Assembly (NCBI GenBank): GCA_903861305.1
Contig: CAIOTT010000029.1
Coordinates: 1-41,371 of the forward strand
Reading direction: 5' to 3'
DNA length: 41,371 bases
Source of the DNA: Candidatus Omnitrophota bacterium
GTDB lineage: Bacteria; Omnitrophota; Gorgyraeia; Zapsychrales; Fredricksoniimonadaceae
Under the pieces are notes generated by a model. It saw nothing but the letters and a program-made list of their open reading frames with translations, had not been told where the DNA came from and did not search any database. Positions 31,840-41,075 of the stretch are shown in pieces; position 1 is the first letter of the stretch; each line of letters begins with the position of its first letter. A program made the position numbers and the translations under genes.

Positions 31840-32643
31840 TTATTTCTTCACCGCGACGAACCGGCCCTGGACCAGTTTTCCTTCGTGGGCAAGTTTCTGC
31901 ATGAACATCATCTCACAGGCCAAAGACTGCATCAGGGCCATATCAAAGCCAATGATCTTGAGTGCGTCATAGGTCAACTGTTTCTTGAGCATATCCAGGT
32001 AAAGATCCACGTGAGAGGCAAATTGCGCTGTATCCTCGGCAACGATGACCCTGCACCCATTCTTCTCCAGCAACACCTTGTAATCCTGGACATTCAATAT
32101 GTTGGGGAATTTCATGAAAGTTAAAAGCCTCTTACCTTCGTCAGGCGTCAGGGGAATTTCACCCTCAACCCAGTCCGTAAAGGCAAGAATACCGCCGGCC
32201 TTGACGATCCGTACTGCCTCCCGAATAAGCGAAGCCTTATCCTCGACATAACACCAGGCATCTTCACCCCAGACAAAATCAGCTGCTCCGGCGATTAACC
32301 CGGTATCGCCAACATCTCGATGAACGAACCGGATCTTGTCGGACGAGCCTTCCTGCCGGCACCTGTCCTGGCCGCGCAGGATGACTTTCTCCGTCGCGTC
32401 AACCCCTGTCATTCCCACAACGTTGCAAAAACGCACCAAAAACCGCATTCCCGCGCCGGAACAACAGCACAAGTCAACACCCTTCAACCCTTTCAGGTCA
32501 CCTGCTTTCGCGGACAGCGCCAGGGAAGAAGCCAGCCCGCCGATATGGATCTGTTCTCCCATGATCAATTCCCAAAGATCGCCCTCCGGCCCGCTGTAAA
32601 CCGCCTGCACATTCTCCAATCCAATGCCGTTGATCGATCTCAT
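31840..32643 (-). CDS. SAM-dependent methyltransferase (sarcosine/dimethylglycine methyltransferase-like)
   Basis: VDLCCCSGAGMRFLVRF...GVDATE, DFVWGEDAWCYVEDKASLIREAVRIVKAGGILAFTDW. Confidence 0.75.
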   Translation of the reverse strand: MRSINGIGLENVQAVYSGPEGDLWELIMGEQIHIGGLASSLALSAKAGDLKGLKGVDLCCCSGAGMRFLVRFCNVVGMTGVDATEKVILRGQDRCRQEGSSDKIRFVHRDVGDTGLIAGAADFVWGEDAWCYVEDKASLIREAVRIVKAGGILAFTDWVEGEIPLTPDEGKRLLTFMKFPNILNVQDYKVLLEKNGCRVIVAEDTAQFASHVDLYLDMLKKQLTYDALKIIGFDMALMQSLACEMMFMQKLAHEGKLVQGRFVAVKK

Positions 32644-34226
32644 CAGCTTCTTCCTTCGAGTTTTCGTGAATCAAGATATTTTCCGTACGCCATTTTCACG
32701 GGAGCGCCCCCAATGAGCACGGCACACCAGGCCGCTTCATCAAGCTCTTCTTTGGCAATGCCCATAGCCAGGGACTTTTCATAATGCATATGGATGCAGG
32801 GCTCACAGCGTTGAAGGACCACCAGGGAAAATATGATCATTTCCTTCGTACGTTTATCAACCTTGCCTGTGGCGGTTACTGATGCCAGCAATTCCCCAAA
32901 CGCCTTCATGGACCCAGGGACCGTGCTTTCCACGCCCTCAATAACGTCAGCTTCACTGCCGGAAACACAGGAGCAACAACCAGTCTCATGCCCCCCGGCG
33001 CCTTGATATTTCTTTAATTGCATATTTCCCCCGCTTTTTGTTATAACCAGCTCAATGGCAACTTCTTGCTTCGGCAGGACCTGACCTATAGTAAACGCGC
33101 GGACACCGCGCGCTGCCAGCTCATCGAGAAGCATTTGATGGCGCTCTTGAGGGACCGAGATCATCAAGCCGCCCGATGTTTCAGCGCTGAACCCGAGGTA
33201 TTTATATTCCTCGGCAACACCTTCGCAGGCAACAAGGCTATCCCCGACAAATTCAGAGTTCCTCTCATTAGCGCCAGGGATAACACCGTCGCGTAACAGA
33301 TCCAGCACACCCTCGAACACCGGCAAAGCATGCGCGTATATCCGGGCAGAAACGCCGGATTGACGCAGCATCCGCAGCAAATGCCCGAACAATCCAAACC
33401 CCGTGATATCGGTGCAGGCGGAAACACTGACCTTTACCATCGCGTCAGACGCGTCCTTGTTGAGCTCCATCATCGAAGATATTGCAGCAGCCAGACCTTC
33501 CTGAGGCGCGCGGTTTGTCTGGCCTGCAAAGGTCAGCACCCCGACACCCAGCGGTTTTGTGAGGACCAGGACGTCACCGGCGCTAGCTGTCTCCAACGCA
33601 ATGACCTTGCCGGCATCAATGGTCCCTGTTATGGCAAAACCCAGCTTCACTTCCTTATCCTTGATGCTATGCCCGCCCAAAAGTGAGCACCCGGCCTCAC
33701 TCAGGACCTCCATCGCTCCCTTTAACATGAGATACATGATCTCCCTGTCATGCGTTTCCGATGGGAACGCCAGGATGCTCAGCGCCGTCCGCGGGACAGC
33801 ACCCATCGCATAAATGTCCGACAGGCAGTTGGCGGCACATATCTTCCCAAATACATAAGGGTCATCGACACAAGGCGTGAATACGTCAACCGTCTGCACA
33901 AGCGTTGTTGTCGGGTTCAACCTGTAGACACCGGCGTCATCCGCGGCCGCCAGTCCCGATATCACCGCGGGGTCATCGACCTTTGGCAAACGAACGAGCA
34001 ACCCCTCGAGATCTGCCGCGCCGATCTTGGACGCGCAGCCCGCGCTGGAACTAAGCGCCGTTAACTTGATCTGATCTGAAGCAATGGCAGGGGGACGTTC
34101 ACCGGCGCAAGGGCAAAGATCCTCTTTGATAAAGATCTCGCATGGGCATTGCCGTTTAACGTCACAGATGCAATACCCAAGTTTTCGGGATCGCATCATG
34201 ACCTGAGCGCGCTTGTATGAACTCAC
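32643..34226 (-). CDS. selD: Selenide, water dikinase fused to N-terminal Cys-rich and C-terminal AhpD-like segments
   Basis: SSAGCASKI active-site region, VQTVDVFTPCVDDPYVFGKICAANCLSDIYAMGAVPRTAL, LLGGHSIKDKEVKLGFAITGTI; C-terminal RCEPCIHMHYEKSLAMGIAKEELDEA. Confidence 0.92.
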   Translation of the reverse strand: MSSYKRAQVMMRSRKLGYCICDVKRQCPCEIFIKEDLCPCAGERPPAIASDQIKLTALSSSAGCASKIGAADLEGLLVRLPKVDDPAVISGLAAADDAGVYRLNPTTTLVQTVDVFTPCVDDPYVFGKICAANCLSDIYAMGAVPRTALSILAFPSETHDREIMYLMLKGAMEVLSEAGCSLLGGHSIKDKEVKLGFAITGTIDAGKVIALETASAGDVLVLTKPLGVGVLTFAGQTNRAPQEGLAAAISSMMELNKDASDAMVKVSVSACTDITGFGLFGHLLRMLRQSGVSARIYAHALPVFEGVLDLLRDGVIPGANERNSEFVGDSLVACEGVAEEYKYLGFSAETSGGLMISVPQERHQMLLDELAARGVRAFTIGQVLPKQEVAIELVITKSGGNMQLKKYQGAGGHETGCCSCVSGSEADVIEGVESTVPGSMKAFGELLASVTATGKVDKRTKEMIIFSLVVLQRCEPCIHMHYEKSLAMGIAKEELDEAAWCAVLIGGAPVKMAYGKYLDSRKLEGRS

Positions 34227-34474: not shown

Positions 34475-35122
34475 ATGACCCATACACCAGCTGCTGTGCG
34501 ATCAAGGCGCCCTGGCAATAAGCACATAATAACGACCTTTGATCAATCAACAGCTACGTGCCATATCTTTACTTTCAAGGAAGGCCTGCTGTCTTTGGTT
34601 GCCCACGATCTCAAGCTGCAAGTTTTAAAGTTTAAAATATCGGTAGAAGGCAACCCAAGCACGTTACCCGTGTGGAAAGGCGTTCGCGCCACGTTTGACC
34701 CTGCCAGTATCACGACCGTCTGCGCCATGCACGATGGCCAGGAAAAACAGAACAGGTTGAACAAACAGGACTGCCTTGATATCGAAAGGAACATGGCCAA
34801 CGACGTATTGCGGACAAAAGAGCACCCCCGCATTGACTTCTGTTCCAAGGTTGTTTCGGGGAGCCATGACAACTTCGTTGTCAAAGGCCATTTGACCATC
34901 TGCGGCACAACACGTGCGATATCCGTTCCTGTTGAACGGGAGGATAATGCCCATGTCGTAAAAGTTACCATGGATCAACGTGATTTTGGGATAAGGCCAT
35001 TCACTGCCCTGATGGGAACAATGAAGATCAAGCCCGACATACTGATCAGGATCGAGCTGCCTGTTATATCAGTCTCACCACGGCCCAAGCCATCGCACCT
35101 GGGTGCGGCCAAATCCCGTTGA
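34475..35122 (+). CDS. YceI-like family protein
   Basis: LLSLVAHDLKLQVLKFKISVEG, VLRTKEHPRIDFCSKVV, VKGHLTICGTTRAISVPV, DFGIRPFTALMGTMKIKPDILIRIELP. Confidence 0.75.
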   Translation: MTHTPAAVRSRRPGNKHIITTFDQSTATCHIFTFKEGLLSLVAHDLKLQVLKFKISVEGNPSTLPVWKGVRATFDPASITTVCAMHDGQEKQNRLNKQDCLDIERNMANDVLRTKEHPRIDFCSKVVSGSHDNFVVKGHLTICGTTRAISVPVEREDNAHVVKVTMDQRDFGIRPFTALMGTMKIKPDILIRIELPVISVSPRPKPSHLGAAKSR

Positions 35123-36232
35123 AGCGTTAGCTGATGCCGCCAAACGTAAACGCCCTGACTGGAAATCTGACACAGCGCCACTTACAGTTGCGGCATTCTC
35201 GAAATAATATATCCTCACGCCATCGCCTCTCAGCGCCGTGAACATCTTTGGCCCAACCTTCCCCGCCAGGACAGTGCCGATGTTATGGGCATTGACCATA
35301 GCACCCAGGATGCCGCTTTCTTCAACGTTGTAATAACGGCTCTTGTTCATTTTCATCGTTGTTGTACCGTTCTTAAGGTCAACGATACAAAAATATGGCG
35401 CACGGCCGAGAAGGCTGGAAACGGGGCTGTCCAATGTCCCTCCTTCTGAAGGAATAAGAACAACATCCCTGCGGCTGAACGTGCACAGCACCGTCCACGA
35501 AAAGAATACAATAATGCACACTGTCAGCGCACCCAATGCCAACACCATCTGCTTTTTCAATGCCGCCACCTTGGCCTTTTCCTTCTCAAAATATTCAGCA
35601 AAGATCTGAAGCGCCCCATGGATCTGGAAACCACCGATAAAAAGCGCGCCGATCGGGTCAAAATATACAAGCCCCAGGACCGCGAGAAGTATCCCGAAAA
35701 AACCAAAACAGGCCGCGAACAAATTTGTTTTGTTCTGGATCATGAATATGAAGACATTGGCGTTACTTCTATCGCGTTTATGATTGCATAAAGAGATCAG
35801 GTACAAATGCGCATTGACCAGAATCGATACCTTGGCAACGATAAGAGCAAAAAGACCAGGCCGGGAAGGTATCCTGGAGATGATAATGGCAAAATTGTCC
35901 GAACATATCCATACACCTGAAACGAACATGATGATCCCGATGAGAATGCTCTGCATCGGCACAGACACGGTCTTCCCGCGCGCACCAAAATAATTGATCC
36001 CGAATGCAGCGCAATCGGAGAACGAATGGACCGCCTCGGCCACCAGCACCTTACTTCCGGTTATAACCCCGACGACCCCCTTGATCATCGTCATTGCCAT
36101 ATGATAGATCAAGGACCCTGAAATGATCTTTACCTGGCAGTCCAGACAGTCGGCCTCTTTTGTCCGATTGCAAAGGATATAACGCTCGGAGTTACTCATT
36201 TTTCTTGGCCCGCGATGTGTTGGTCGTGTCAT
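35075..36232 (-). CDS. CDF-family (MamB-like N-terminus) transmembrane domain fused to a NifX/NafY-like domain
   Basis: CLDCQVKIISGSLIYHMAMTMIKGVVGVITGSKVLVAEAVHSFSD CDF start; extra TM; APYFCIVDLKNGTTTMKMN...VLAGKVGPKMFTALRGDGVRIYYFE. Confidence 0.75.
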   Translation of the reverse strand: MTRPTHRGPRKMSNSERYILCNRTKEADCLDCQVKIISGSLIYHMAMTMIKGVVGVITGSKVLVAEAVHSFSDCAAFGINYFGARGKTVSVPMQSILIGIIMFVSGVWICSDNFAIIISRIPSRPGLFALIVAKVSILVNAHLYLISLCNHKRDRSNANVFIFMIQNKTNLFAACFGFFGILLAVLGLVYFDPIGALFIGGFQIHGALQIFAEYFEKEKAKVAALKKQMVLALGALTVCIIVFFSWTVLCTFSRRDVVLIPSEGGTLDSPVSSLLGRAPYFCIVDLKNGTTTMKMNKSRYYNVEESGILGAMVNAHNIGTVLAGKVGPKMFTALRGDGVRIYYFENAATVSGAVSDFQSGRLRLAASANASTGFGRTQVRWLGPW

Positions 36233-37185
36233 TTCAACGCCTGTTCTTTAATGTAAACGAAGCATTTTTTGCACTGCTCCTTCTTCCTTGATGCTGTCCC
36301 CTGCATCTGCCCTTCGCACCATGTGTAATCCACTTCCCAGCATTTCTTCCCGTTATTGGGGAACGCCGGGCATTGGACCTGCCGTTCCGGGGGGCAATTC
36401 AGGACATCCCAGCAGGAAGACTTCATAAAATGATCACAATGCCCCCGAAAATCCCTGGTTTGCTTTCTCATGCCCGCGATCAAGGCTTCCCAGTTCGCAT
36501 TGTTTTCAAGTTCCCTGGGCAATGGCTTTTTTTCGATCTTTTGAAAAAACACATCCATTTCCCGACAATAATTTTTTGCCATGTCCAGAAGCTTTTTATT
36601 CCTCACGGCAACCTCTTCATCCGGCATTGCATCACGCCAAACCTCGAATCCCCCCAGGACTCTCCCCCTCTTATCCATAAGAGGGCCGGCGGTAACAATG
36701 ATCGTATGCTCCCGATCGAACTTATCAAGGACCTTGACCCTTTTACCAATGACCGGCTGCTGCGTCGTCATAGCTTGTTTAATGGCGCATTTCTTTTCAC
36801 ACAAATTACTGTTGAATACCCGCGTGCAATTGACCTTGCCCACCACATCATTCAAACTCAATCCGGTAAAATTAAGGCACGCCGGATTCATGAACTGGAT
36901 CTTCATGTTCTTATCAACAATAAAAAAGGGATAACTTGATGCGCGCAGGATGCTGACAGCAAAAGAAGACATGTCTTCAAATTCAGTAAAGACCTGCACC
37001 TTGGTGGAAAGGAACTCCAACAGACTGTTCTTCCCAGCATCCCCCTTGTTTACCTCAACCTTCTTGTGAGATGACGGGGACCTTTCCGCGGCTTCGCTTG
37101 CTGTCAGATCAGCATCTTTTTCACCCTTCGCAGGCTTGATTCCTTTAAGCTCACCCATGATGCGCGCCACACGGACAAAATTCAT
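36229..37185 (-). CDS. PAS domain protein with C-terminal Cys-rich (CW-type) motif
   Basis: SYPFFIVDKNMKIQFMNPACLNFTGLSLNDVVGK PAS; CWDVLNCPPERQVQCPAFPNNGKKCWEVDYTWC...CKKCFVYIK. Confidence 0.8.
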   Translation of the reverse strand: MNFVRVARIMGELKGIKPAKGEKDADLTASEAAERSPSSHKKVEVNKGDAGKNSLLEFLSTKVQVFTEFEDMSSFAVSILRASSYPFFIVDKNMKIQFMNPACLNFTGLSLNDVVGKVNCTRVFNSNLCEKKCAIKQAMTTQQPVIGKRVKVLDKFDREHTIIVTAGPLMDKRGRVLGGFEVWRDAMPDEEVAVRNKKLLDMAKNYCREMDVFFQKIEKKPLPRELENNANWEALIAGMRKQTRDFRGHCDHFMKSSCWDVLNCPPERQVQCPAFPNNGKKCWEVDYTWCEGQMQGTASRKKEQCKKCFVYIKEQALK

Positions 37186-37200
37186 CGCTATCTCCCTGAT

Positions 37201-38103
37201 TTAAACCGTTTCAATAAAGAAATCAATTTCACTTATCTCCGGCAAGGCCGTCATAAGAAGGCGCTGAAGTTCACCCATCAACACATCATTCTCACGGACT
37301 GACGGTGTCACGGGCGATCTGAGGCTGATGCCTACCCACAACTTTTTTCCAACCCTTCTGTATTTCATTGCGGTCATCTGATAGTCAGGCCCCGCATCCA
37401 GGATCACCTTTTCTATGGTCCGCTGGAATCCCGGGCCTGAAACCTGGTCAAGGATGACATGCAAATTCCCCATCCAATGGGACAAAGAATCCTTGATAAT
37501 AATGACACCCACAATTAATGCGGCCAGCTTGTCGAAAACGGCAAACGAAGGCCCAAATTGTGAAACAATGATCGCCACGATGACTGCGCCGGAAGAGAAA
37601 AGATCCGCCCCCGCATGGCACCCGTTCGCCACCATCCCCGCGCTGTCCAGCTTCACGCCGGCGCAAAAGTTATACCTGTAGATCATGTACGTTAATAACG
37701 CTGATACCATAACGACCGGTAAGGCGATAATATCCGGCTGAACAAAATCCCGCCTTAATATCCCAACAACATTCGTCAGCACGATGAACAATCCGATCCC
37801 TATCAGGATGCTGAACGCGGACAGCGCCGCGATAAATTCGATCTTGGCGTAACCGTAAGGAAAACGCTCGTCCGAGCCACGTTGAGAGAACCCAAGGCTT
37901 ACCATAATGAGGATGCTTGTGGCCACGCAAGAAATAGACTGGAACCCGTCCGCCAAAAGCCCGGCGCTATTCGTAAATGTTCCGCCGGCGATCTTCATAC
38001 CTGCCAGGAGCGTATTACCCAATACAGTCCATACCAGGATCTTCTTTGAACACCCCTTGCAATCCTCCAGGTCAGTCGATGGGCACATCGGTCTTTCCGT
38101 CAT
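37201..38103 (-). CDS. MamB-like CDF-family protein
   Basis: EDCKGCSKKILVW N-terminal CxxC as in MamB; GLLADGFQSIS, FPYGYAKIEFI, MIYRYNFCAGV, GMVANGCHAGADLFSSGAVIV. Confidence 0.8.
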   Translation of the reverse strand: MTERPMCPSTDLEDCKGCSKKILVWTVLGNTLLAGMKIAGGTFTNSAGLLADGFQSISCVATSILIMVSLGFSQRGSDERFPYGYAKIEFIAALSAFSILIGIGLFIVLTNVVGILRRDFVQPDIIALPVVMVSALLTYMIYRYNFCAGVKLDSAGMVANGCHAGADLFSSGAVIVAIIVSQFGPSFAVFDKLAALIVGVIIIKDSLSHWMGNLHVILDQVSGPGFQRTIEKVILDAGPDYQMTAMKYRRVGKKLWVGISLRSPVTPSVRENDVLMGELQRLLMTALPEISEIDFFIETV

Positions 38104-38984
38104 TTCTGCTCCGTAACACCTATAAAAAGTTCGTGCGGGCTCGAAAACTTCTTTCGGAACGTTCTCTTAACGTGCTGCGCGATCATGGCCGCTTCACGCA
38201 TGGATATATCCCCGGCCATGCCAAGAACGGCGATGATCTCGATCACATGGCCAGCCTTATTCACCCGAAGCTCTTTTATAGAGGCTCCGGAACGTGCTTT
38301 CCGTAATATTGCCTCAATTGAAGCAACGGTTTTCTTATCACATGAAGCATCCATGAGCCCCTGGAACGACTCTCTCAGGAACTTCACGCTATAAACGATC
38401 AAAAAGAAAGCCGTAAGAATGGCACAGGCATAATCCAGGACCAAGGCACCCGCCCGGGCCAATACAACCGTCACCATCGTCATAACCGACAAAAGGAATG
38501 ATGCGTTAAGGATGAACCCGGTCTCTTTCTCATCGATCTCAGGCAGATCGATGATCTTTTTTCTGGTCCACAATATAAGCCCAAAACTGGCGATCCCGGT
38601 TATCATGGCGACCCAACCCGCCAATAATTCCGGTGGATAAAGCGTATGAAAAAATGCCAAATGACTGATCGATAAAAATAAAACGCTTGTGCTTAACGTA
38701 ATGATCGCCGATGTACCCAAAACAATGATCAGCTCAAGTTTGTCGGGGTTAAAGTACTGATGTATCGCCCCACGCCCCGGATGAGAGCGATGAATGCGCA
38801 GCATGGTCACAACAGCAATAAAAACACCGAAAAGCGAGAACATGCCTGAAACAAGCAAACATTTTGAACCCGTCAACAACCCGAATATTGTGCTGACAAG
38901 AAAGAAGGATAAAAATGAATAGAACAGGACGTACGCGATCTGCTCCTTGTTATCCTTCACTGAATTCCTGGCCATTTTTGTCAT
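38100..38984 (-). CDS. Degenerate CDF-family (MamM-like?) protein
   Basis: ORF 38100..39110; likely start MTKMARN at 38984 because the upstream part overlaps the magnetochrome gene. TM topology and CDF-type C-terminal LFIGVTE end. Confidence 0.65.
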   Translation of the reverse strand: MTKMARNSVKDNKEQIAYVLFYSFLSFFLVSTIFGLLTGSKCLLVSGMFSLFGVFIAVVTMLRIHRSHPGRGAIHQYFNPDKLELIIVLGTSAIITLSTSVLFLSISHLAFFHTLYPPELLAGWVAMITGIASFGLILWTRKKIIDLPEIDEKETGFILNASFLLSVMTMVTVVLARAGALVLDYACAILTAFFLIVYSVKFLRESFQGLMDASCDKKTVASIEAILRKARSGASIKELRVNKAGHVIEIIAVLGMAGDISMREAAMIAQHVKRTFRKKFSSPHELFIGVTEQK

Positions 38985-39000: not shown

Positions 39001-39747
39001 TCATTTAACGCTCCCGTTAAGGCCGAGAATGGTATGACAATTCGAACAAACCCCTCTGAAAGCGTGCATTTGCGTTGCAGAGGCAGGTATGGCGATATCC
39101 GGCTTGACAATATGGCAATTTTCGCAAACTCCGCGAAATTTATGGATCATAACAGCATCACGGAATATCGGCGGCGGCGCAACAGGTTGGGTTAGCGCAA
39201 CAGGCGCAAGCCCGCCACTATTCACGCCGGGAATCCGTATTTTGAACTGGCAACGGGGACACTGCGTATAACCTCTGCTCTCGGCATATGGATCATTGAA
39301 TATAGAATTACAGCGGGGGCACTTTATACTGACGGTATTCTGACTTAACGCTCTTGACTGGGCCCTCATAGGATAAACGGGCCTGGCCAATGCAACCTGC
39401 TGGGCGCAACCAGGCGTATACGCAGCTGCCTGGGCGCAATTGGGAGCGTACGCGATCTGCTGAGCTCCCGTTGTTGCCGGCGGGAAACATTGCGGTGCCG
39501 AGGGGCACGTCACACAGTTAGGCGGGACAAATGCCGCCTGCCTGCCACCTCCCGACATAATGATCCCTTCCTGTTCCTGATTCTGATTTGGGACAGGTAA
39601 AGACCGCTCTTTGGTCGTGAACATGATGTAACATAAAAATGTTGCTATCACGATCACAGCCCCGCCCAACAACCAGACATGACTGGCCTTTGTAACGGCG
39701 TGAGGGCTCTTTTTAACGTGTGATCCTGTCGTAAAGTCGTCTTCCAT
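39001..39747 (-). CDS. Membrane-anchored double magnetochrome protein with a zinc-ribbon-like segment
   Basis: TM; CPRC-N18-CPRC; MIHKFRGVCENCHIV and QMHAFRGVCSNCHTI, magnetochrome-type HxFRGxCxxCH motifs. Confidence 0.85.
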   Translation of the reverse strand: MEDDFTTGSHVKKSPHAVTKASHVWLLGGAVIVIATFLCYIMFTTKERSLPVPNQNQEQEGIIMSGGGRQAAFVPPNCVTCPSAPQCFPPATTGAQQIAYAPNCAQAAAYTPGCAQQVALARPVYPMRAQSRALSQNTVSIKCPRCNSIFNDPYAESRGYTQCPRCQFKIRIPGVNSGGLAPVALTQPVAPPPIFRDAVMIHKFRGVCENCHIVKPDIAIPASATQMHAFRGVCSNCHTILGLNGSVK

Positions 39748-39773: not shown

Positions 39774-40220
39774 TTACATACCACCAGGACGTATCCCGAC
39801 CCGGCCAGAAACACGGGCCTGCTGCCCCTGTCGGTCCACTGTAAAAACGATCGGGACACCGGGATCAGCCGTCTGGATCAGGAATTGGAACTGATCCTGA
39901 TTTATGATGCTGATCCCGTTCCAGCGCTGGATCACGTCTCCCTCCTTGATCCCCGCGATCGAAGCCGGAGAGCCAAGGAACGTTCGTGACACAAGGATCC
40001 CGTTCGAATCCAAAAGATCATACTGTTGTTTTACGGCAGGGGTGAGTTCTATGGTTTCAACACCCAACCATAACCTGGGGTCAACGGTCTTGATCCTGGA
40101 CTCCCCTTTATTGAACAAAATAAGGAGGACGAACACGATCGCGACAAATATCAAGACCCAGACCATATAGGTGATCGAATCGTCTGGCACCTCTTCCCGA
40201 TGACGCCGTCCTTTATCCAT
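39774..40220 (-). CDS. Membrane-anchored PDZ protein (MamP/MamE PDZ-like)
   Basis: N-terminal TM; GILVSRTFLGSPASIAGIKEGDVIQRWNGISIINQDQFQFLIQ. Confidence 0.82.
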   Translation of the reverse strand: MDKGRRHREEVPDDSITYMVWVLIFVAIVFVLLILFNKGESRIKTVDPRLWLGVETIELTPAVKQQYDLLDSNGILVSRTFLGSPASIAGIKEGDVIQRWNGISIINQDQFQFLIQTADPGVPIVFTVDRQGQQARVSGRVGIRPGGM

Positions 40221-40229
40221 AATTCCTTG

Positions 40230-41075
40230 TTAGCTGCCTGTTCCAGTTGACGGATTTCGTTTGCCCAACCGCACCTTAACGCTATCGCACTTCAAACAGC
40301 CAAAACAACGCACGCATGTAGAATTCCCGGGATCGTCGCTGATATTGATATCCACCGGGCAAATATCCCTGCATTTCTGGCAGTCTTTACATTTCTTGGT
40401 ATCAACATCCATCTGCAAAAGGCTGTATTTGTTAAAAAACCCGAATATCGCACCAAGAGGACAAACCAGCCTGCAGAATGGCCGCTTGACCATAACAAAA
40501 AGACCAATAAACAAAACCGCGATCAATATCTTTATGATGAACAATAGACCAAGCGTCTGAACAGAAACAGCCGGCTCGCCGTAGACAGGAATAACTGGAT
40601 TCCAAAGGACCCACGGCATCGCCGCCTGAATGGTGCCCATGGGGCAAACTTTTGAAAACCATGTCTCCTGTGTCACCCAGGGTAAAAGGATGACCAGCAG
40701 CAACAGGACGAGATACCTGAACGACGACAACTTTTCCGGGAGCCTGAACTTGACGCTTTTGATCTTATACAGCATATCCTGAAGCCATCCGAACGGGCAC
40801 ATCCAGCCGCACGCAAGCGCGCCAACCGAGATCCCTATCGCAGAAATATATCCGGCCAAAAGGTAAGGCAATTTATGAATGGTCATAAAATGCTGGATCG
40901 TCCCTATCGGGCAGGAAAAGAATGCCGAAGGACAACTATGGCAATTAAGGACCGGAATACATGCGCTTTTAAGCTCGCCCTGATAGACCTGCCTGGTCTT
41001 CAGGAAGCCAAGATACATGTTCATCAAGATAGCCGAGCATCCTTGCGTCAATAGGCGGATATTCTGCAGATCCAT
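40230..41075 (-). CDS. NapH-like membrane polyferredoxin (paralogue of 25215..26078)
   Basis: CHSCPSAFFSCPIGTIQHF, CGWMCPFGWLQD, CRLVCPLG, CKDCQKCRDICP and CVRCFGCLKC. Confidence 0.85.
   Translation of the reverse strand: MDLQNIRLLTQGCSAILMNMYLGFLKTRQVYQGELKSACIPVLNCHSCPSAFFSCPIGTIQHFMTIHKLPYLLAGYISAIGISVGALACGWMCPFGWLQDMLYKIKSVKFRLPEKLSSFRYLVLLLLVILLPWVTQETWFSKVCPMGTIQAAMPWVLWNPVIPVYGEPAVSVQTLGLLFIIKILIAVLFIGLFVMVKRPFCRLVCPLGAIFGFFNKYSLLQMDVDTKKCKDCQKCRDICPVDINISDDPGNSTCVRCFGCLKCDSVKVRLGKRNPSTGTGS

Follow-up and report, generated by a model that had tools for sequence, protein, structure and literature searches.

The DNA analyzed here, referred to as the window, is 41,371 nucleotides long and represents the entire contig C29 of a draft Candidatus Omnitrophota genome (1.74 Mb, 68% complete). 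The gene under study had been placed at 39001..39747 by an earlier note that gave no strand. We found it on the minus strand, and its product (the focal protein) and neighbors are described in Table 1. The one transmembrane (TM) segment that had been proposed was observed both as a hydropathy segment (residues ~24–42) and as a helix in the AlphaFold model, and the positive-inside signal of the protein is weak. The linker that follows has a unit, CxTCPxxxQCFP (CxTCP..QCFP), that is present in 0–3 copies per orthologue. The AlphaFold model of the full-length protein had a mean pLDDT of 51.9 and a pTM of 0.24, and was confident for only the TM helix and the zinc-ribbon-like module. A frameshift or assembly artefact was ruled out, as 13 loci, taken from separate assemblies, all have an open reading frame.

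Table 1. Coordinates of the focal gene, its features and neighboring genes in the window
Feature	Position	Strand	Description and basis
NapH-type membrane ferredoxin	40230..41075	minus	NCBIfam NapH 58.6 bits, below cut-off; Mad6-like by domain and context
Membrane-anchored PDZ protein	39774..40220	minus	148 aa; upstream neighbor; Pfam PDZ_2 28.8 bits; position conserved
Focal gene	39747..39001	minus	248 aa, ATG start; TM, Cys/Gln/Pro-rich linker, zinc ribbon, MCR1, MCR2; ORF, Pfam MCR, orthologues
Single TM helix	39616..39687	minus	Residues about 21–44; hydropathy and AlphaFold helix 21–44
Linker repeat NCVTCPSAPQCFPPATTGAQQI	39454..39519	minus	Residues 77–98; orthologue alignment
Zinc-ribbon-like module	39220..39342	minus	Residues 136–176; alignment, AlphaFold, Foldseek, YebS ribbon
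MCR1 IFRDAVMIHKFRGVCENCHIV	39100..39174	minus	Pfam MCR
MCR2 MHAFRGVCSNCHTI	39022..39093	minus	Pfam MCR
MamM-like CDF transporter	38100..38984	minus	NCBIfam MamM 85.9 bits, below cut-off; orthologue starts
MamB-like CDF transporter	37201..38103	minus	NCBIfam MamB 143 bits, below cut-off; Pfam Cation_efflux 117 bits
PAS and two-CW protein	36229..37185	minus	NCBIfam two-CW 36.7 bits, above cut-off; next gene in conserved block

The order NapH-like, PDZ, focal, MamM-like CDF and MamB-like CDF was observed in 11 of the 13 loci, across three phyla. Gaps between the block genes in the window are 9–26 bp, or the genes overlap by 4 bp, and based on this close spacing the block looks like one operon. 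The MamM-like gene likely starts at the ATG at 38984, 16 bp past the focal stop codon; an open reading frame called from the TTG at 39110 was rejected as overlong on the basis of sequence and orthologue starts. For the two other copies (bin-075 and nDJH6bin5 copy 2), the only neighbors kept are the PAS/two-CW gene, which in Omnitrophota usually comes next after the block, and an HTH gene. The two-CW cysteine domain of the PAS protein in the window is C-terminal, and the protein may sense redox state or metals. Where the magnetosome block ends, 35075-36232 (minus) encodes a fusion of a CDF transporter with a NifX-type domain (PF01545 and PF02579). A SelD-like selenide water dikinase fused to a carboxymuconolactone decarboxylase/AhpD-like domain is encoded at 32643-34226 (minus) and adjoins a methyltransferase gene. 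Upstream of the block, where the window contig ends, most relatives also carry one gene for a NifX protein and another for a protein of 118 aa. Beside NapH in relatives' blocks are a TM protein with a double zinc ribbon (117–118 aa) and a TM-NifX-CxxC-pair protein of 236 aa (L033 10516-10869 and 10869-11579).

The focal gene lies in a magnetosome gene cluster, with MamM- and MamB-like CDF genes adjoining it and the main mam cluster of the host on contig C45. That cluster encodes a MamE-like protease, a MamP-like protein (219.9 bits) with a PDZ domain and two magnetochrome (MCR) domains, MamA-like and MamQ-like proteins, a PDZ-MamN fusion and a TauE/MamO-Cter-like protein, all of which scored under the NCBIfam equivalog cut-offs. 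Judged by its genes, the host is a putative magnetosome producer. To our knowledge, magnetochrome domains are confined to bacteria that form magnetic crystals. The MamM/MamB-like pair of the window (37201-38984, minus) is divergent, and a closer MamB/MamM pair is present in the main cluster of nHGRbin18 (MamB 236 bits, MamM 243 bits), which suggests that each organism has two CDF pairs. In nDJH6bin28, a CcsA/CcmC-type cytochrome c assembly gene (L065 10262-10930, G016:C58) is located two genes past the MamP-like gene.

Magnetochrome motifs and the zinc-ribbon-like module

Both of the C-terminal HxFRGxCxxCH motifs that the earlier note had reported are present, the first being IHKFRGVCENCH (ligand histidine H202, CXXCH at residues 208–212) and the second MHAFRGVCSNCH (H228, CXXCH at residues 234–238). 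A domain search had been set as the test of their magnetochrome identity. This search matched Pfam MCR to the C-terminus in two stretches at 38.9 bits (E 6e-10), above the curated cut-off of 30.4 bits, and gave only 10 bits to Cytochrome_C7, in keeping with the identity proposed. An unrelated multihaem cytochrome was ruled out, since MCR is over its cut-off and the matches to Cytochrome_C7 and Nrf are far under theirs. No tandem HX5CXXCH arose in 200,000 shuffles of the focal protein, and a chance origin of the motifs was ruled out by these shuffles together with orthologue conservation. In 13 of 13 proteins, no variation was observed at H202, C208, C211, H212, H228, C234, C237, H238 or the two R-G pairs, and almost all of the invariant positions fall within the MCR tandem. 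AlphaFold confidence over the focal MCRs is low, and their assignment rests on sequence. A point against is that a sequence search of the PDB gave a better match to a multihaem cytochrome c family protein (3ouq, E 1.8e-4) than to MamP (E 1.6).

The MCR has been defined as hydrophobic-X5-9-[P/T/H]H-X5-9-CX2CH-hydrophobic, with the histidine acting as the sixth haem ligand (PMC3971196). Both focal MCRs fit this definition in part, having its ligand histidine and spacing. The P position is occupied by I and M (IH, MH), and is PH in most orthologues; the published pattern catches one of the two focal MCRs, or both when the P/T/H position is relaxed. H202 and H228 are presumed to be the sixth haem ligands. 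Genes for ResB and CcsA (system II haem c assembly) adjoin each other on contig C24 of the host genome, and because they are present there, covalent haem c in the focal protein is possible.

Magnetochromes have been listed in MamE, MamP, MamT, MamX and MamP* only (PMC3971196). The earlier note had set the focal protein apart from the first four, and membership of each failed on domain content and NCBIfam scores. The trypsin-like protease domain that is the hallmark of MamE is absent in the Pfam scan; the MamP and MamT models gave 25.6 bits (cut-off 300) and 20 bits (cut-off 200), with the haem motif alone matched in each case; and MamX gave no match up to E 0.1. MamT resembles the focal protein in having one membrane anchor and an MCR tandem with no protease or PDZ domain, but the focal protein has linker repeats, a zinc ribbon and a different gene neighborhood. 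MamP has the same C-terminal MCR1-MCR2 arrangement, but its PDZ domain is in the chain, whereas there is none in the focal protein, which has a PDZ protein next door; the host also has its separate MamP-like protein. FmpB/MamP* of Desulfovibrio magneticus RS-1 combines MCR1-MCR2-PDZ-NifX on one chain (PMC3971196, PMC4287615), and the focal protein, without PDZ or NifX, is set apart from it by described domain content. The full RS-1 set (two MCRs, PDZ, NifX, and NapH as mad6) is found in the Omnitrophota block, though divided among separate chains.

Preceding the tandem, the CPRC pair described by the earlier note is present, but its spacing had been miscounted as x18; the core, CPRCNSIFNDPYAESRGYTQCPRC (residues 143–166), is CPRC-x16-CPRC. 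When the linker was shuffled 200,000 times, a CPxC-x10-26-CPxC pattern arose 53 times. Zn_ribbon_4 matched at 16.7 bits in the whole protein and 24.2 bits in the excised module, both under the Pfam cut-off of 30.3 bits. Local pLDDT was about 87–95 at the ribbon (residues 141–170) within the full-length model, and the excised module was modeled as two hairpins (pLDDT 82.9). Foldseek searches with the ribbon returned no significant match (best E only 0.14), with the neighbors being mostly zinc ribbons or fingers (HVO_2753, TMEM55B, LysW, HOIP). Among solved structures, the YebS zinc ribbon (9n8w) is the closest relative in sequence along the full length of the module. The CPxC pairs are common to the YebS/PqiA and focal ribbons, but YebS/PqiA is an intermembrane transport protein without haem. 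Overall, the zinc-ribbon call is supported by the sub-threshold Pfam matches, seven orthologues, the likeness to YebS and the locally confident predicted fold. A metal is presumably bound by the module.

Distribution of the family and of the ribbon

Our searches, made among relatives, across the phylum and in named genomes, produced 13 full-length members of the focal family, which is unnamed. These are 11 copies from 10 Omnitrophota genomes and one each from Fibrobacterota (Fibrobacteria nGRbin1) and Planctomycetota (nwagbin3); a fragment in nS315bin20 is a possible extra member outside the 13. The closest named relatives of the focal gene are Candidatus Omnitrophota MAGs. In bin-075 (G004, L039/L050 651-1211), a 94% complete genome, the focal-family copy was the sole MCR protein found, and the cluster there is possibly a remnant.

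The tandem MCR is present in all 13 members, and the ribbon is intact in seven, degenerate (CPVC..CANC) in one and absent from five, so that both features are seen again in orthologues whose genomes and assemblies are separate, with the ribbon missing in some. On a block tree built from the NapH, MamM and MamB neighbors (874 columns), the ribbon-less nDJH6bin28, nDJH6bin5 copy 1 and nDJH15bin6 were scattered among ribbon-bearing lineages, with UFBoot support of 95, 97 and 100 at the relevant nodes and of only 69 and 75 at two deep nodes. Because of this scatter, the simplest account would be at least three losses of the ribbon in Omnitrophota, with the haem sites never lost. In nDJH6bin28, an alignment gap takes out almost exactly the ribbon. 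The ribbon is thus dispensable within the family, and our best reading is that it would be an accessory structural or docking module.

The earlier note had not recognized the pairing of zinc ribbon and magnetochrome from MamE, MamP, MamT or MamX. This pairing is not unique to the focal family, as the host genome encodes a second such protein, TM-NifX-ribbon-ribbon-MCR, of 488 aa (C45 39238-40704; L031 239-1705). Its unnamed family in Omnitrophota has a TM segment, a NifX domain, two or three CPxC pairs and one or two MCRs; ribbons were present in 13 of 16 examples (481–573 aa when ribbon-bearing), and three were without. Like the focal protein, these proteins carry ribbon and MCR, with similar MCRs, on a membrane-anchored chain, but they differ in starting with a NifX domain at the N-terminus, in having two or three ribbons and, in most cases, in having a single MCR. 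CPxC knuckles in Omnitrophota therefore occur fused to MCR (in two families), fused to NifX, and alone behind a membrane anchor. CxxC pairs at the ribbon spacing were present in 2 of 259 background ORFs of the host genome and in ~4 of some 20 genes in the cluster of the most complete relative, an enrichment (Fisher p 0.0003) that is indicative only, as the genomes differ and the gene set was hand-counted. Our literature search, which covered the text of openly available papers, found none joining magnetosome with zinc ribbon. Magnetosome clusters of Omnitrophota have been published, and the focal gene may be drawn in them unnamed or under a mad number (PMC5955933, PMC7602337).

Proposed role and alternatives

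We consider it probable, at about two chances in three, that the focal protein is a dihaem cytochrome of the magnetosome membrane that would connect lumenal iron with the quinone/NapH side, beside the iron importers, with the ribbon as an accessory. A redox role is the default because MamP is a ferroxidase, with MCR proteins being needed for normal magnetite (PMC3971196), and because Desulfovibrio magneticus mutants in mad6 (NapH) and mad1 (CXXCH) have impaired magnetite (PMC4287615). The one-pass anchor would hold a tail facing the lumen or periplasm that consists of the zinc-ribbon knot and a tandem MCR with two covalent c-type haems, attached by ResB/CcsA of the host. The two haems would pass electrons between lumenal iron and a partner in the membrane. 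From gene neighborhood alone, this partner is most likely the adjacent NapH-type ferredoxin, leading on to the quinone pool. Such an exchange could tune the Fe(II)/Fe(III) state of iron imported by the neighboring MamM/MamB-like CDFs during crystal growth. The small upstream PDZ protein may hold the parts together, as a separate-chain counterpart of the PDZ domain inside MamP, and the ribbon would shape the linker, the core redox job not needing it. Haem occupancy, orientation, electron direction and partners are all predicted for the focal protein.

Comparison of 79 MCR segments (22 positions each) placed the focal MCRs with those of the NifX-ribbon proteins, and MamP MCR1 far apart. The mean identity of focal MCR1 was 0.54 to NifX-protein MCRs, 0.47 to MamP MCR2 and 0.17 to MamP MCR1, and that of MamP MCR2 was 0.47–0.51 to the focal MCRs versus 0.21 to MamP MCR1. 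MCR1 and MCR2 of one protein have been found to group together (PMC3971196); the Omnitrophota clade may depart from this, with MamP MCR2 being nearer the MCRs of other proteins than MamP MCR1, although these short segments are suggestive only. The clustering raises the possibility that the focal protein is a descendant or the ancestor of the NifX-ribbon-MCR protein of the main cluster, and is a companion of that protein and not of NapH. Both have an N-terminal TM segment, a low-complexity linker, one or more CPxC ribbons and one or more C-terminal MCRs, and in the two NifX proteins with tandem MCRs (nHGRbin18, nDJH6bin5) MCR1 averages 0.73 identity to focal MCR1. However, BLASTP gave no alignment between the two outside one MCR, their ribbon sequences differ and they are in separate gene blocks, so we regard this relationship as possible but not probable. 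Gene conversion between the two genes in nHGRbin18 was also considered, as their MCR1s are alike, but the focal genes of other genomes match about equally, and shared ancestry would be an equally likely explanation.

It is unlikely that the PDZ protein and the focal protein are separately encoded halves of a MamP-like ferroxidase that has been divided between neighboring genes. The gene order, PDZ and then MCR1-MCR2, is that of the MamP domains (TM-PDZ, MCR1-MCR2), the two genes are adjacent in 11 of 11 intact blocks, and both halves had weak NCBIfam MamP matches (18.9 and 25.6 bits). Yet a complete MamP-like protein (219.9 bits), which has both the PDZ domain and two MCRs, is already encoded by the host, and the focal MCRs group with those of the NifX-ribbon-MCR protein and not with MamP MCRs, in a comparison of 22-residue segments only.

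More doubtful still is the reading of the focal protein as a divergent form of Mad1, a CXXCH protein that is needed for single-domain magnetite in Desulfovibrio magneticus and whose mutants affect crystallization (PMC4287615). Mad1 likewise has haem motifs and is encoded in a magnetosome cluster of deep-branching magnetotactic bacteria, and the Planctomycetota member, alone in the focal family, has three CXXCH, as does Mad1. The focal protein has two, and is set apart from Mad1 (PMC4287615) by motif count alone.

The site of the ribbon, beside haems in an iron-handling organelle, also bears on which metal it binds. Rubredoxin binds iron through two CPxC-type knuckles, and similar knuckles occur in other magnetosome proteins of the group, but we think it quite improbable that CPRC-x16-CPRC binds Fe and not Zn as a rubredoxin-type relay carrying electrons between lumenal iron and the haems, as the ribbon has been lost at least three times and the haem sites never, unlike an essential relay, and the neighbors in sequence and in fold are zinc ribbons or fingers (YebS, HVO_2753, LysW, TMEM55B), with no rubredoxin among the matches listed and no fold match significant. 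The broader idea that the CPxC knuckle is a recurrent module of the Omnitrophota magnetosome lumen that would bind iron, in a mixed Fe(Cys)4/haem relay metering iron into the crystal, is a long shot.

Experimental knowledge of magnetosome redox chemistry comes mostly from MamE, MamP, MamT and MamX of Alphaproteobacteria. The focal family represents an unnamed MCR carrier with a fixed place in the NapH-PDZ-MCR-MamM-MamB block of three phyla that branch deeply, and it makes the 2014 list of MCR carriers (MamE/P/T/X and MamP*) too short. By gene order, a redox protein and a quinone-linked ferredoxin are tied to the iron importers. The block is a compact gene set that could be moved into Magnetospirillum for asking where magnetosome electrons go.
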